Positions 3,136 through 9,649 of a stretch of 37,921 bases of DNA are shown in pieces. The notes beneath the pieces are model-generated. The model saw nothing but the letters and a program-made list of their open reading frames with translations, was not told where the DNA came from and ran no database searches. Numbering within the stretch: position 1 is the stretch's first letter; the number at the start of each line of letters is the position of its first letter. The position numbers were made by a program, and so were the translations under genes. The DNA lies in the NCBI RefSeq assembly GCF_002684405.1, contig NZ_NYVD01000104.1:1-37921 (forward strand), read 5' to 3'. This DNA is from Parvibaculum sp. (lineage in GTDB: Bacteria; Pseudomonadota; Alphaproteobacteria; Parvibaculales; Parvibaculaceae).

Positions 3136-3687
3136 ATGCACAAACTCGTAGCGGCCTTTGCGCTTGCGGCATTTGCGTTCCTTGCGCCTCTCGCGCATGC
3201 CGAGGACGGGCAGAAGCTCGATCCGGAAAACACGCTCTACATGGACCTGAAAGACGGCCGTGTCGTCATCAAGCTCTATCCGGAAATCGCTCCCAAAACG
3301 GTCGAGCGGATCAAGAAGCTGACGCGGGAGGGCTTTTACGACGGGCTCGTCTTCCATCGCGTAATCGACGGCTTCATGGCCCAGGGCGGCGATCCCACGG
3401 GTACGGGACGGGGTTCTTCCATGTATCCGGACCTGCCGGCCGAATTCACCAACAAGCTGAGCTTCGGGCGCGGCACGGTCGGTCTCGCGCGCTCATCGTC
3501 GCCTGACAGCGGCAACAGCCAGTTTTTCATCTGTTTCCAGGATTGCAGCTTCCTGGACGGGCAATACACCATCTGGGGCCAGGTCGTCTCCGGCATGGAT
3601 CATGTCGACAACATCAAGCGCGGTGAACCGCCTGTAAATCCCGACAAGATTGTTCGGATGCAGGTTGCCGCAGACGCCAAGAAATAG
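3136..3687 (+). CDS. Exported cyclophilin-type peptidyl-prolyl cis-trans isomerase
   Basis: This 183-residue cyclophilin starts with a Sec signal peptide (MHKL, a hydrophobic Ala/Phe-rich core, and a probable cut after AHA at residue 22), so it should act in the periplasm as a proline-isomerising folding factor of the PpiA type. The cyclophilin core is intact: FHRVIDGFMAQGGDPTGTG (active-site Arg in FHRV; QGGD loop), SQFFICF and the WGQV segment. The start ATG has GGAG at 3126-3129. The next gene encodes a closely similar cytosolic paralogue 11 bases downstream, so the pair looks like a tandem duplication in which one copy gained or kept a signal peptide. Confidence 0.93.
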   Translation: MHKLVAAFALAAFAFLAPLAHAEDGQKLDPENTLYMDLKDGRVVIKLYPEIAPKTVERIKKLTREGFYDGLVFHRVIDGFMAQGGDPTGTGRGSSMYPDLPAEFTNKLSFGRGTVGLARSSSPDSGNSQFFICFQDCSFLDGQYTIWGQVVSGMDHVDNIKRGEPPVNPDKIVRMQVAADAKK

Positions 3688-3698
3688 GAGCCGCCTTC

Positions 3699-4172
3699 AT
3701 GGCCGATATCAAAGACCCCGAAAACACGCTCATCATGGAAATTCCTCATGGTGAGGTCGTCATCGAGCTTCGTCCGGACCTCGCGCCGAAGCATGTCGAA
3801 CGCATCAAGGAGCTGGCCCGCGAAGGCTTTTACGACGGCGTCGCTTTCCATCGCGTGATCGACGGCTTCATGGCGCAGGGCGGCGATCCGACGGGCACCG
3901 GCACGGGCGGCTCCGGCAAGAAGCTGCCGGCCGAGTTTTCGCGTGAGCCGCATGTCCGCGGCGTCTGCTCCATGGCCCGCACGCAGGACCCGAACAGCGC
4001 GGATTCGCAGTTCTTCATCGTCTTCGACGACGCCAGCTTCCTCGACGGCCAGTACACGGTCTGGGGCAAGGTGATTTCCGGCATGGAAGCCGTTGACAAG
4101 ATCAAGCGCGGCGAGCCGGTGCGTGAGCCCGACCGGATCGCGTCCATGAAGGTCGCGGCGGACGTGGCCTAA
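3699..4172 (+). CDS. ppiB: Cytosolic cyclophilin-type peptidyl-prolyl cis-trans isomerase
   Basis: This 157-residue cyclophilin has no signal peptide, so it is a cytosolic PpiB-type isomerase. FHRVIDGFMAQGGDPTGTG, SQFFIVF and DGQYTVWGKV are the conserved active-site segments. The ATG is preceded by AGGAG at 3688-3692, immediately after the stop codon of the exported paralogue, so the two are surely co-transcribed and probably translationally linked. It shares long identical stretches with that neighbour. A palindromic intergenic region follows, with the first hairpin 16 bases after the stop. Confidence 0.94.
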   Translation: MADIKDPENTLIMEIPHGEVVIELRPDLAPKHVERIKELAREGFYDGVAFHRVIDGFMAQGGDPTGTGTGGSGKKLPAEFSREPHVRGVCSMARTQDPNSADSQFFIVFDDASFLDGQYTVWGKVISGMEAVDKIKRGEPVREPDRIASMKVAADVA

Positions 4173-4187
4173 GGCAAAAACAGTGTC

Positions 4188-4210
4188 ATTGCCGGGCTTG
4201 ACCCGGCAAT
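4188..4210. repeat. Short perfect inverted repeat after ppiB
   Basis: A perfect 9-bp inverted repeat (ATTGCCGGG / CCCGGCAAT) surrounds a 5-base loop, 16 bases after the ppiB stop. No T-run follows, so it is either a weak terminator or, more likely, one of the dispersed palindromes with this core found between genes of many alphaproteobacteria. The latter is recalled knowledge; copy number elsewhere in this genome cannot be seen. Confidence 0.6.
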
Positions 4211-4293
4211 CCAGCTCCGGTCCCATCTGCAATCAATCAGGTGCCCGGAGTCTATGACCGCACAGTTGGCGGCCATAGTTGGATATAACAGTC

Positions 4294-4382
4294 GTCATGG
4301 CCCGCTTTATGCGGGCCATCCACGTCTTGTCGCCCGGAAAACCGTAAAAGACGTGGATGACCCGGACGAGCCGGGTCATGAC
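4294..4382. repeat. Long imperfect palindrome (two ~35-bp arms)
   Basis: The arms at 4294-4328 and 4348-4382 are reverse complements except for a few bases. They start with GTCATGG and end with GGTCATGAC, share the block CCACGTCTT / AAGACGTGG, and leave a 19-base centre. Each arm also contains its own smaller palindrome (GGCCCGC/GCGGGCC; ACCCGG/CCGGGT), so the element could fold as a cruciform or a three-stem structure. It carries no ORF. This resembles dispersed non-coding palindromic elements of alphaproteobacterial intergenic regions. It separates the gyrA-ppiB group from queA-tgt, and could also stabilise or terminate the upstream transcript. Confidence 0.7.
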
Positions 4383-4451
4383 GGTAATTCGTATGCCCGG
4401 CCATGAGTGAAGCCCGGGCTGCCGGTTTGTATGAATAGTCGGATCAAACCC

Positions 4452-6655
<2,204 letters not shown>

Positions 6656-6660
6656 ATGCT

Positions 6661-6704
6661 ATCTTGCCCAAAGCGTGGTTTTCTCAAGCTCAATCTTGCC
6701 CAAA
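6661..6704 (+). repeat. 12-bp direct repeat pair between tgt and tRNA-Lys
   Basis: ATCTTGCCCAAA occurs at 6661-6672 and again at 6693-6704, 32 bp start to start (about three helical turns). It lies just upstream of the probable tRNA-Lys promoter and just after the tgt stop. It could be a protein-binding pair or chance; nothing else in the sequence decides. Confidence 0.5.
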
Positions 6705-6718
6705 CCATGTCTGGAGTG

Positions 6719-6747
6719 TTGACCGCCGCCCAAGCTCCCCTTAAGTT
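6719..6747 (+). promoter_or_regulatory. Probable sigma-70-type promoter for tRNA-Lys
   Basis: TTGACC at 6719-6724 and TAAGTT at 6742-6747 are separated by exactly 17 bp, and the downstream stretch CCGCGCA is GC-rich, as expected for a stringently controlled stable-RNA promoter. Transcription would start near 6754, about 55 bases before the mature tRNA. This is a sequence-pattern call only. Confidence 0.5.
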
Positions 6748-6807
6748 CCGCGCACTTTCCGGCGGCTGGCGCGGGTCCCCGACTCGCCCGAATAGCCGTT
6801 TCAGGAC

Positions 6808-6883
6808 GGGCCCTTAGCTCAGCTGGTAGAGCAACTGACTTTTAATCAGTAGGTCGATGGTTCGAACCCATCAGGGCTCACCA
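6808..6883 (+). tRNA. tRNA-Lys (anticodon UUU)
   Basis: A complete 76-base cloverleaf is visible. The acceptor stem is GGGCCCT (6808-6814) with AGGGCTC (6873-6879), including one G-T wobble. The D-arm contains AGCTCAGCTGGTAGAGC. The anticodon stem ACTGA/TCAGT holds the loop CTTTTAA with anticodon TTT at 6841-6843. The T-arm is GATGG-TTCGAAC-CCATC, the discriminator is A6880, and CCA is encoded at 6881-6883. It ends 12 bases from the stop of the convergent oxygenase gene. Confidence 0.98.
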
Positions 6884-6894
6884 CTTATCCCCGC

Positions 6895-8301
6895 TCAATC
6901 TCCCGCATGTACCGTCGGCGTCGAGACGTGGAATTTCGGATCGTCGAAATTCGCGCGCTTTTCGGCGTAATAGCGTTCGTACCAGTCGCCTTCGCGTTCC
7001 GCATTGAAGGTGAGGAACATGGCCCGGCGGGATGTGTTGCTCTCATTGGGCGAGGAACGGTGCGGCGCGAAACTATCGAAGATCACGAGGTCGCTCGGCG
7101 CGGTTTCGACGGTCTGCCAGTCCAGCGCGTCGGCGATTTCCGGCGCGATGTCGCCATTGTGCGGACCGCCGTTCTCGAAGCGCAGCAACGCTCGACCGTC
7201 GATGCGTTCTTCCACGGCATCGGCGTGATTGTCGGGAAACCCGGCCCAATCCTTTGCGAATTCCAGGCAGCCGTTTTCCCGGGTCGCCGGGTCGACCGAG
7301 ATCATGGCCGTCACATTGTAGCGTGGTCCGAATGATTTATAGGCCGCGAAATCCTGATGTGGGCCGAAGGCGCCGCCGCCGGGATGCTTCTCATTCTCCT
7401 TATCCTTGAAGGGGATAAAGGCCTCGCCCGTCAGTGCCTCGATCACGGGCGCGATGCGGGTGTCGATAAGGTTTTTGAACTCCGGACGGCTGCCCAGCAG
7501 ATACTCAAAACGGCAGATTTGCAACGGATCGGCGGCTTCCGGCACGACGATGAGTTCGTCGGGGCGCGTCGCAAGCAGTTCAGCCACCGGTTTGCCACTG
7601 TAGATCGCCTCACGCAGAAGCAAGTCCGCGCTCGCGCCCATTTCGCTCGACAGGCGATTGAAGGTTGCGGCTTCCGCTTCCGAAAAGAAGCCGCGCAGCA
7701 CAACGACGCCGTCGCGCCGGAATGTTTCACGTTCTTTATTGCTGATCGCAGCGGCGGGCAGATAACGCAGGAAGTGCTCGAGAGGCGGGGTCTCCATTGC
7801 CGGGTCTTTCGCCTCTTCATCATAGCGGCGCAGGCGAATGGCCTCGTCAGCATAATCCTTCGCAATGAAGGCGGCGGTTTCGCTCTCGCTCATCGGGCCG
7901 CCTTGCAGCTTCAGGGTTAACACGGAATCGGGCGCGAGCTTGTCCATATAGCCGGGTTCGGTCGCGCAGAGATAGCGCTTGGCCTCCACATGCATCCGTA
8001 CCGGTTCGGCAAGGGCGGCGGGCAGGCGTTTCGCGAGCCATTTCGCACCGAGTATCTCGTGTCGGTCGTCGACCCCTTCCTCAGCCGGGTTCTCGCCCAG
8101 CTTGTGGATCATGTGCCCAACATCGTGAAGCAGCGCAGCGAGAATGAGGGCAGGGGCTTCGCCGTTCGTTTCCGCCAGCGCTGCGCTTTGCAGCGCGTGC
8201 TGAAGCTGGTTGATGTCCTCCAGCCCATATCGGCTCGTGGCACGCTCAGTGTAGATCTGCGTGATTTCATCGACTGCTGAGATACTGGCTTGTTCCGGCA
8301 T
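6895..8301 (-). CDS. HD-domain (PhnZ-like) + phytanoyl-CoA dioxygenase (PhnY-like) fusion oxygenase
   Basis: This 468-residue protein joins two oxygenase domains. Residues 1-180 match PhnZ, the mixed-valent diiron HD oxygenase that splits the C-P bond of 1-hydroxy-2-aminoethylphosphonate to glycine and phosphate. Metal ligands are His35, His59-Asp60, His63, His81, His104 and Asp161; Lys108 (AKRY), the LQGGPM segment, and Tyr25/Glu28 (Tyr24/Glu27 in PhnZ, which gate and hold the substrate) are kept. Residues 190-468 are a PhyH-type Fe(II)/2-oxoglutarate dioxygenase with HxD at His315/Asp317, distal His414 and a following Arg pair for 2-oxoglutarate; PhnY, which makes the PhnZ substrate, is of this type. 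The ATG at 8301 has AGGA nearby and fits the PhnZ N-terminus; an upstream in-frame start at 8448 adds Arg-rich non-family sequence. No phosphonate transport gene is adjacent, so the substrate is inferred. Confidence 0.88.
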   Translation of the reverse strand: MPEQASISAVDEITQIYTERATSRYGLEDINQLQHALQSAALAETNGEAPALILAALLHDVGHMIHKLGENPAEEGVDDRHEILGAKWLAKRLPAALAEPVRMHVEAKRYLCATEPGYMDKLAPDSVLTLKLQGGPMSESETAAFIAKDYADEAIRLRRYDEEAKDPAMETPPLEHFLRYLPAAAISNKERETFRRDGVVVLRGFFSEAEAATFNRLSSEMGASADLLLREAIYSGKPVAELLATRPDELIVVPEAADPLQICRFEYLLGSRPEFKNLIDTRIAPVIEALTGEAFIPFKDKENEKHPGGGAFGPHQDFAAYKSFGPRYNVTAMISVDPATRENGCLEFAKDWAGFPDNHADAVEERIDGRALLRFENGGPHNGDIAPEIADALDWQTVETAPSDLVIFDSFAPHRSSPNESNTSRRAMFLTFNAEREGDWYERYYAEKRANFDDPKFHVSTPTVHAGD

Positions 8302-8381
8302 GGCGATCCTGCTGACTACGGGAGGAGCGCCAAGTTTATCCACGAATGTGACAGGCCGAATAGAAGATCGTTTCGGCGTGA

Positions 8382-9062
8382 TCAGCCGTTCGCGTCTACC
8401 AGCTTCAGCGCCCGGCAGTCTTTTCCCCGGGCCTTCAACTGCGCGCAAAGCGTTTCCGCGGCGGCGCGGCTCGACAGGGGGTCGGTCAGGAGGCGGGTGT
8501 AGACCTTTCCATCCCGGCTTTCATATCTCATCGTCGTCCAGCCCCGTCCCGACAGCATGTCCGGATAACGAGCGGAAAGAATGCGCTTTCCTTTCTCGAT
8601 ATTGGCAGCATCGAGATAGGACGCGAGATGGACGGCCCAGCCGCTCCGGTTCCGCCCATCCTCGGCGCCGTCGGTAAGAGTGGGGCGGATGTCGAGGTGT
8701 ACGGGCTTTGCGGCCGGCTGCTGCTTCTGCCTTGGAGAAATGGAGGCGGTGGTGAGGCCTAGCCCGGCTTCGAGCGTACCCAGCCGATTGTTCATCGACC
8801 GGTCGCTTGCCTTGAGGTCGGTCAGCACCGGCTCGATAACGGAGTATTTTCGATCCAGCGTCGCAACGCGGGCTTCCAGACGATCGAGGCGCCGTTCGAC
8901 GCTTTCCGCGGGCGGGGCCTGGTCGGCCGCTGCTTCCGCCTTGTCCTGCTCTGTGGGCACGCCTGCGCCCGCTGCGCGCTCCGAGCAGGCGGACAGGCCC
9001 AGCGAAAGCGGGGCCATGATAAGCGCTGCTGCGATTGCGCCGGGCACCGGCCTGATTGTCAT
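8382..9062 (-). CDS. SPOR-domain lipoprotein, coiled-coil region
   Basis: The 226-residue product begins with a lipoprotein signal peptide: a hydrophobic stretch and a lipobox LSAC with the lipidated Cys at 26. A short Ala/Glu-rich linker leads to a predicted coiled coil (about residues 48-95, VERRLDRLEARVATL and following). The last 80 residues look like a SPOR domain (WAVHLASYLDAANIEKG, YTRLLTDPL, CAQLKARGKDC), which binds denuded septal peptidoglycan, so a cell-envelope or division role is likely. The ATG at 9062 is chosen over a TTG at 9080 because GGAGGT lies about 10 bases upstream. It is 80 bases upstream of the fusion oxygenase gene on the same strand; a functional link is not evident. 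Confidence 0.8.
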   Translation of the reverse strand: MTIRPVPGAIAAALIMAPLSLGLSACSERAAGAGVPTEQDKAEAAADQAPPAESVERRLDRLEARVATLDRKYSVIEPVLTDLKASDRSMNNRLGTLEAGLGLTTASISPRQKQQPAAKPVHLDIRPTLTDGAEDGRNRSGWAVHLASYLDAANIEKGKRILSARYPDMLSGRGWTTMRYESRDGKVYTRLLTDPLSSRAAAETLCAQLKARGKDCRALKLVDANG

Positions 9063-9343
9063 CGAAAGTCCGACCTCCAAACTGCGATACCGCGACCACC
9101 GATCACCGCATCACCTGTCTTTCGTTAGTGCGAGTCGGGCAATGCGGTCAAACGCAGGACTCCGGGCCTTCTGCCGATTTCTTGTGCAAGGTGCGAATGT
9201 TTTGCCCGGCTCGACAAGGAGAGGGGTTCCGGTAAATCTTAGCAAATGCATGATTGTGCGTGAGGCCCGTTTTCTGCATAGGATTGCGCCAGGACGGTCG
9301 GTCGCGGCAGCCGGTCCAGAGGAAACTAGAAACGGGGAAAGGC

Positions 9344-9649
9344 ATGTCGTTGAACGAGTTGGTGGGGAGCCTGACGGCGCAGGAATTGGCGGTCGCCGGC
9401 GGGCTGGTTTTCTTTGCGATTTTCTTTCTGGGCCTGGTCATAAGGAGCTGGTTTCTGACCCAGCTCCTGAATGAGCGGGCGGCGAGAACCGAGGCGTCGA
9501 GCCGCCTGGAGCGGGCCAAACCCGCTGTGGTTTCCTCCAAGCCGGTACGCGCTGCGTTGCGCAAACCGATCCCGGCTGTGCGCTCGGCAGTCCCGGCGCC
9601 CCGAAATCATCGCTACAATGGTTCAAACGGGCGGGCCCGCAGCTCGTAA
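9344..9649 (+). CDS. Small single-pass membrane protein, unknown function
   Basis: A 101-residue product with one clear transmembrane segment (about residues 14-38, AVAGGLVFFAIFFLGLVI) followed by a basic, Arg/Ala/Pro-rich tail that would lie in the cytosol. The ATG at 9344 has a GGGGAAAGG purine run just upstream; earlier in-frame starts give a non-conserved Arg/Cys-rich leader. I do not recognise the family. It stands alone: the preceding gene is divergent (281 bases, no obvious site) and cysD follows 174 bases later. Confidence 0.6.
   Translation: MSLNELVGSLTAQELAVAGGLVFFAIFFLGLVIRSWFLTQLLNERAARTEASSRLERAKPAVVSSKPVRAALRKPIPAVRSAVPAPRNHRYNGSNGRARSS

Follow-up and report, generated by a model that had tools for sequence, protein, structure and literature searches.

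A gene for a fused HD and PhyH-type oxygenase in Parvibaculum with a predicted role in oxidative phosphonate cleavage

The window, i.e. the whole stretch of 37,921 nucleotides that was analysed, carries at 6895..8301 on the minus strand a gene for a fused HD and PhyH-type oxygenase, whose translation yields 468 amino acids without an internal stop codon. An earlier note on this DNA had given the same range, which we confirm as an open reading frame and which includes the stop codon. A longer alternative frame with a TTG start at 8448 would encode 517 amino acids. We prefer the ATG at 8301, because similarity to full-length relatives begins at residues 11-12, in agreement with this start, and because an AGGA lies a few bases upstream of it. 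Profile matches divide the protein into an HD oxygenase domain (residues 9-181; 7759..8277, minus strand), assigned by TIGR03276 and by similarity to TmpB and PhnZ in sequence and fold, and a PhyH-type 2-oxoglutarate/Fe(II) oxygenase domain (residues 194-427; 7021..7722, minus strand), assigned by PF05721 and fold. The gap between the two matches leaves a join of about a dozen residues (182-193; 7723..7758, minus strand). The HMM search that the earlier note had proposed thus matches both domains and bears out its description of two oxygenase folds on one 468-residue chain with the HD part first. A promoter scan found no site and a terminator scan found one, fewer than in shuffled sequence.

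The HD part matches TIGR03276, the model for phosphonate degradation HD-domain oxygenases, with 214.9 bits (E 6e-64, residues 9-181), which exceeds the curated cut-off of 214.6 bits by a margin of only 0.3 bit. In a six-frame search of the whole genome, the same region (7759..8277) scored 217.4 bits and was the sole match. The nearest solved relatives found with phmmer are TmpB (E 3e-33) and then PhnZ (E 5e-23). We compared 13 active-site positions in the phmmer alignments (Tyr25, Glu28, His35, His59, Asp60, His63, His81, His104, Lys108, Ser126, Gln133, Arg158 and Asp161) and observed that all 13 are identical in the window HD, PhnZ and TmpB. The residue matches to PhnZ claimed earlier, from His35 to Asp161 and including Lys108, are one-to-one in this alignment: window Tyr25, Glu28, His35, His59 and Asp60 correspond to PhnZ 24, 27, 34, 58 and 59, and His63, His81, His104, Lys108 and Asp161 to PhnZ 62, 80, 104, 108 and 161, with the TmpB residues identical. 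Four of the 13 positions, Lys108, Ser126, Gln133 and Arg158, presumably contact the phosphonate in PhnZ; they are kept in the window HD, and the standalone HDs keep all four too. The diiron motif of these enzymes reads H...HD...H...H...D (accessible part of PMC8177086), and its ligands are all present, as aligned to PhnZ and TmpB: His35 (8197..8199), His59-Asp60 (8122..8127), His81 (8059..8061), His104 (7990..7992) and Asp161 (7819..7821), all on the minus strand. Among the HD profiles named for a substrate, the TmpB model NF049941 scores best with 167 bits, below its curated cut-off of 300; the model for the hydroxymethylphosphonate oxygenase GmPhnZ, NF052439, gives 117 bits and likewise stays below a cut-off of 300.

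Tyr25-Glu28 (8218..8229, minus strand) forms a YxxE loop that maps to PhnZ Tyr24/Glu27; the Glu of this loop turns towards the amino group of the substrate, as described in the accessible part of PMC8177086. The earlier note took the pair as a hint of an amino-bearing substrate. The mapping to PhnZ holds, but the hint is soft: one fusion, L006, has Ser at position 28, and Glu also occurs in the HD protein of L110, which lies in a methylphosphonate-type-looking pair and whose best substrate-named model is the hydroxymethylphosphonate one, so that Glu28 is no proof of an amino substrate. The other four of the five fusions have Glu28, and Glu is absent here from all 25 standalone HDs aligned with them (19 Ser, 3 Tyr, 2 Ala, 1 Thr). 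In a wider set of 105 HD rows, position 28 is Ser in 68, Glu in 25, Ala in 5, Thr in 3, Tyr in 3 and His in 1. When the HD tree was thinned to 49 rows, the fusions were placed together (91/84) with the standalone L080, which also has Glu and no PhyH frame beside its HD gene; the join between L080 and the fusions is weak (87/44). As judged from these alignments, most fused HDs carry a PhnZ-like Glu that is mostly missing from the closest standalone HDs.

The second part of the protein belongs to the PhyH family, as it matches PF05721 with 56.5 bits (cut-off 22; E 6e-15; residues 194-427) and contains the HxD...H triad His315, Asp317 and His414. The HxD iron motif His315-Gln316-Asp317 (7351..7359), the distal iron ligand His414 (7060..7062) and Arg425-Arg426 (7024..7029), all on the minus strand, are invariant in 9/9 aligned PhyH rows, in line with the iron ligands named in the earlier note. 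We take one of the two arginines to be the binder of the 2-oxoglutarate carboxylate. The sole NCBIfam model matched by this part at E < 1 is that of the methylphosphonate hydroxylase GmPhnY, NF052437, with 126 bits at a curated cut-off of 500. All ten control PhyH proteins, which have no HD gene found nearby, match the same model with 112-184 bits, eight of them above 126. These controls come from the 18 loci L132-L149 (L133, L143, L145, L146, L148 and L149, on the minus strand, as well as L135 and L141 were left out) and are the next-best matches to the window PhyH part in the class-level search, i.e. near kin instead of random PhyH proteins. Since all ten match it too, eight of them better, the NF052437 match does not identify the substrate of the PhyH part, and we rejected it as proof of methylphosphonate.

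An AlphaFold model of the window protein reached a mean pLDDT of 79.1 and a pTM of 0.76, from an input alignment of 30 sequences in which five rows cover the PhyH part. The first PDB matches of the model are ten TmpB/PhnZ chains over the HD part (TM 0.79-0.85 by target length), so the overlay on PhnZ suggested earlier agrees for this part. The remainder is matched, more weakly, by PhyH-type proline and ectoine hydroxylases (TM about 0.5-0.6). The pLDDT falls below 50 at residues 303-309, directly N-terminal of the HxD motif.

The genome survey for the fusion that had been proposed yielded five distinct HD-PhyH fusions, namely those of the window, L006, L007 (Parvibaculum sedimenti), L008 and L009; to judge from the length of their contigs and their position in them, L006, L007 and L008 are identical with the genes in genomes G036, G014 and G021, hence the total of five. 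The other four are 58-72% identical to that of the window. In the family to which the window belongs, 4 of 40 genomes carry the protein, always at full length and always within the genus of the window (4/27), and a full-length search at the order level gave the same 40 genomes. Among the GTDB contigs, we found 74 related loci, comprising four full-length fusions (L006-L009) and 70 loci that match the HD part only; four of the latter (L034, L072, L076 and L078) might still be fusions, as the contig ends within their HD frame. A class-level draw of 385 genomes contained 115 with a match at E 1e-10 or below, and the window's own protein was the only full-length one among the matches listed. A phylum draw for PhyH relatives returned one of 398 genomes, the window's own, a result limited by the draw or by the first-look stage, since the class draw had yielded genome G362 at 50% identity. 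The HD-PhyH fusion is rare among the searched genomes and loci. One candidate for a fusion in reverse order, L075 (Acidisphaera), was rejected, as it has no PhyH match and the extra frame before its HD part reads like non-coding sequence. The fusion is under purifying selection in both domains: dN/dS among the five fusions (Nei-Gojobori) is 0.10-0.25 in 19/20 domain comparisons and not computable in one, values that are rough because dS is near saturation.

The fusion gene is present or absent as a single gene. In the close relative G012, the Tgt protein is 97% identical and no fusion match is found at E 1e-10. Window 5000-6903 and 8392-9622 align (blastn, 88% and 83%) to adjoining stretches of the corresponding G012 locus, L150, so that these abutting blocks delimit a segment of 1,488 bases (6904..8391) that is absent from G012. 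Its edges are fuzzy by some bases, and the last nine bases of the fusion gene lie just outside; the fusion gene is the sole gene that the gene finder called in the segment. A tRNA-Lys(ttt) gene (6808..6883, plus strand; ARAGORN) lies 11 bases from the fusion stop codon and borders the absent segment; tRNA genes are a usual place for inserted DNA. No integrase gene was seen at the segment, and a search for a target-site duplication at its edges found none, as the two 8-base edges differ. Between tgt and tRNA-Lys, window 6658-6705 contains two copies of ATCTTGCCCAAA, and L150 has a similar stretch. The other fusions lie at other sites: L006 and L007 share an upstream helicase gene, L008 and L009 have no neighbouring genes in common with these two or with the predicted genes of the window, and ARAGORN found no tRNA gene beside the fusion in L006-L009 (0/4). 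This pattern is most simply explained by single-gene gain at several sites, and it is possible that the fusion gene was lost in G012 instead.

We searched for 11 phosphonate markers and found that none matches the window, L006-L009 or L129-L131 at E 1e-10. These markers do recover the transporter genes in L126 and L128. The earlier statement that no phosphonate transporter or regulator is nearby stands for the transporters, while regulators were outside the marker set, and a phnC-phnD-phnE-like set lies on another contig of this genome. This set (L126, G000:C156:9000-21000, 3516-8110) is followed by genes for a D-2-hydroxyacid dehydrogenase and a LysR regulator. Its phnC scores 281.5 bits (cut-off 266.1) and its phnE 300.1 (cut-off 216.7); the binding protein scores 241.7 with TIGR01098 (cut-off 112.05) and 204.3 with the PhnD model, below the cut-off of 261.1. 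To us, the layout recalls phosphite (ptxABCDE) operons. Four of the five fusion genomes, all except that of L009, were searched for markers genome-wide. PhnE is above its cut-off in one of the four, the window's own. PhnJ has no match in any of the four, with the E. coli positive control matched; PhnW is above its cut-off in 0/4, and PhnX, PhnA and PEP mutase each in 0/5 (the four fusion genomes and G012, which lacks the fusion). The searches for PhnW, PhnX, PhnA and PEP mutase are without a positive control, as no control genome passed the cut-off, and PhnW, PhnX and PEP mutase have weaker matches in every searched genome, as expected for large families. As the window's genome is 91.67% complete, absences there are provisional.

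Of the 70 standalone HD loci, three (L023, L073 and L076) have phnC, phnD and phnE together and 22 further ones have only phnK/phnC-like ABC ATPase matches; with less than 12 kb of sequence in 25 of these 70 loci, neighbours may be missed. L016:1114-6531 and similar Reyranella-type HD loci share a conserved neighbourhood, with a protein-isoaspartate-methyltransferase-like gene, whose sequence cluster is seen in 37 loci, and a membrane protein of 881-885 amino acids in 46 loci, which has no NCBIfam match at E 1e-20. In these HDs, Ser mostly replaces the Glu of the YxxE loop, and the substrate of the standalone Reyranella-type HD may be other than a phosphonate.

The two domains also occur as separate genes. 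On plasmids of Dietzia and Rhodococcus, an HD gene comes directly after a PhyH gene, and the two overlap at their ends. In genome G228, the gene row is phnD, phnC, phnE, PhyH and HD, where PhyH and HD are assigned by profile models, the ATPase and permease match Variovorax phnC and phnE, and sequence and position gave the binding protein its name. When the models named for a substrate are compared, the PhyH-HD pairs of Dietzia and G228 reach their highest scores with the methylphosphonate pair, below the cut-offs. Furthermore, a Variovorax HD gene adjoins phnC-phnD-phnE and C-P lyase genes, and an Asticcacaulis HD gene adjoins an FAD oxidoreductase gene and phnX. In a maximum-likelihood tree of 27 PhyH rows, the five fusions group (91/91) and form one clade (100/99) with the orphan PhyH of G362 and the PhyH of Azospirillum thermophilum. 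This clade sits next to the PhyH genes of PhyH-HD pairs and apart from 17 others; the tree tool warned that long branches, including the Azospirillum PhyH, may join falsely.

The Azospirillum PhyH is 40-44% identical to the PhyH part of the window protein. Its gene cluster encodes a PEP mutase (385.7 bits, cut-off 319.55) and a phosphonopyruvate decarboxylase (401.8 bits, cut-off 312.5), and the same annotated frame continues after PhyH into a fragment of 2-aminoethylphosphonate transaminase (241.4 bits, below the cut-off of 360.8). This joined gene inside the PEP-mutase cluster (L109:9031-10770, on an A. thermophilum plasmid) is likely two genes or a sequence error, as the PhyH end looks frame-shifted. 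In this cluster, the Azospirillum hydroxylase is most simply read as a maker of 1-hydroxy-2-aminoethylphosphonate, a compound that the accessible part of PMC8154272 mentions in bacterial membrane lipids and amoeba polysaccharides.

From these observations, we consider it probable that the single chain carries out a two-step oxidative cleavage of some phosphonate. First, the C-terminal PhyH domain would hydroxylate the carbon bound to phosphorus in a reaction that needs Fe(II), 2-oxoglutarate and O2. The HD domain at the N-terminus would then cleave the C-P bond of this intermediate at a mixed-valent diiron centre, with a further O2 consumed and phosphate released, and the intermediate may be handed over between the two sites. 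This reading builds on what is observed, i.e. both domains with their ligands, the predicted fold, the conservation of the fusion, the purifying selection and the presence or absence as a single gene. The earlier idea of two oxygenases on one chain is further supported by the adjacent separate genes and by the PhyH relative in a biosynthesis cluster, in addition to the profiles, the ligand mapping and the five fusions. The most likely main substrate is 2-aminoethylphosphonate, for which our confidence is evenly balanced and which would be converted to (R)-1-hydroxy-2-aminoethylphosphonate and then to glycine and phosphate. This preference comes mainly from the Azospirillum PhyH in its phosphonate biosynthesis cluster, i.e. 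from one relative at 40-44% identity, with a frame-shifted-looking gene and a long branch. Further points against our reading are that phosphonate markers are missing beside the fusions, that most close standalone HDs lie away from phosphonate loci, that Glu28 is Ser in L006, that the TIGR03276 margin is 0.3 bit, that PhnE is above its cut-off in only 1/4 fusion genomes and that the model has low pLDDT just ahead of the HxD motif.

The same two-step chemistry might act on methylphosphonate, giving formate and phosphate, or on another small alkylphosphonate. The PhyH part does match NF052437 (126 bits) and the HD part NF052439 (117 bits), the model pair with which the Dietzia and G228 pairs also score best, below the cut-offs. 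However, the scores are far below the cut-offs of 500 and 300, the PhyH profile is unspecific, as shown by the 10/10 matching controls, the HD part scores higher with the TmpB model (167 bits) and the PhyH domain groups with the enzyme of the aminoethylphosphonate cluster, apart from the operon-type ones. We thus regard this substrate class as unlikely. An N-methylated aminoethylphosphonate, e.g. 2-trimethylaminoethylphosphonate, is very unlikely in our view: TmpB is the closest solved relative and gives the best substrate-named HD profile, but 167 bits are below the cut-off of 300. TmpA, the known first enzyme before TmpB, is not known to belong to the PhyH family, so that the partner domain would not match.

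Two other explanations question the phosphonate or the sequence of steps itself. The HD domain could have left phosphonate chemistry, as its standalone Reyranella relatives may have, and the fusion would then oxidise another compound in two steps. This would agree with the lack of phosphonate markers beside the fusions (0/11), with the 67 of 70 close standalone HD loci that are without phnC, phnD and phnE together in the DNA examined, and with the large membrane protein gene that 46 loci share instead. We nevertheless find it unlikely, because the partner PhyH has a relative among phosphonate biosynthesis genes and Glu28 is present in 4/5 fusions and absent from 25/25 standalone HDs; Lys108, Ser126, Gln133 and Arg158 are kept as well, although the standalone HDs keep them too. 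Alternatively, the domains might be joined without acting in sequence, with one site idle or regulatory, or with the fusion being an accident of neighbouring genes. The very short join and a hand-over that is only inferred would fit this, but the five fusions keep the ligands in both domains, and dN/dS is 0.10-0.25 in both where computable, which makes it most improbable.

The closest known system to our proposal of two-step cleavage by one chain is fungal. The earlier note described the two oxygenases as usually separate proteins. Their union on one chain is not new: according to the accessible part of PMC10574752, PhoF of the fungus Fonsecaea multimorphosa is a bifunctional fusion of PhnY and PhnZ that acts on 2-aminoethylphosphonate and 3-aminopropylphosphonate. 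PhoF and the window protein are alike in combining, on one chain, a 2-oxoglutarate oxygenase similar to PhnY with an HD oxygenase similar to PhnZ. In PhoF, the 2-oxoglutarate domain is reportedly N-terminal and the HD domain C-terminal, whereas the window protein is bacterial and has the HD before the PhyH domain, i.e. the reverse order. This reversal would mean separate fusion events, where PhoF is compared by description only. The window protein is probably the fungal fusion idea with the parts swapped, in bacteria, with its function predicted from sequence. A bacterial HD-PhyH fusion is not mentioned in the accessible parts of PMC10574752, PMC8177086, PMC8154272 and PMC9381506, which our searches of open-licence literature returned.

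The other close systems differ in that they consist of separate proteins. PhnZ (HF130) has a similar HD fold, and the six ligands, the YxxE loop and the other positions are identical (13/13), but it is a protein separate from PhnY*, and the HD identity is 32-34%; our comparison covers the PhnZ side. TmpB, at 39% identity over the HD part, is closest among the solved HD relatives and also separate from its partner TmpA, and the window HD is below the TmpB cut-off (167 of 300 bits). GmPhnY and GmPhnZ of Gimesia maris are, like the window protein, a combination of PhyH and HD, and the window protein matches both NF052437 and NF052439; yet they are two enzymes (accessible part of PMC10574752), and the window scores are 126 of 500 and 117 of 300 bits.

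Taken further, bacteria might have fused HD and PhyH independently, with the domain order reversed relative to the fungal enzyme, and the gene might move alone between chromosomal sites, giving the use of aminophosphonate phosphate without an operon to genomes without another recognised C-P cleaving enzyme. We hold this idea of a portable one-gene pathway tentatively, at slightly less than an even chance. If true, phosphonate use can be overlooked in genomes without phn operons; it would be easily missed in the four fusion genomes searched, where PhnJ, PhnW, PhnX and PhnA are all below the cut-offs. Furthermore, two successive phosphonate oxygenases would have been joined at least twice, in a fungus and, with the two parts exchanged, in bacteria, and the use of the fusion, be it the capture of the intermediate or the transfer of a pathway as one gene, could be tested by comparing the two solutions.

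Among the two-gene relatives, the Dietzia and Rhodococcus plasmids share a larger block (L110:4009-8358 and L111:3840-8202), in which genes for a methionine-synthase-II-like protein, a second 2-oxoglutarate oxygenase and a YaaH-type transporter are followed by the PhyH-HD pair. This block may be a phosphonate module that includes a dedicated transporter.
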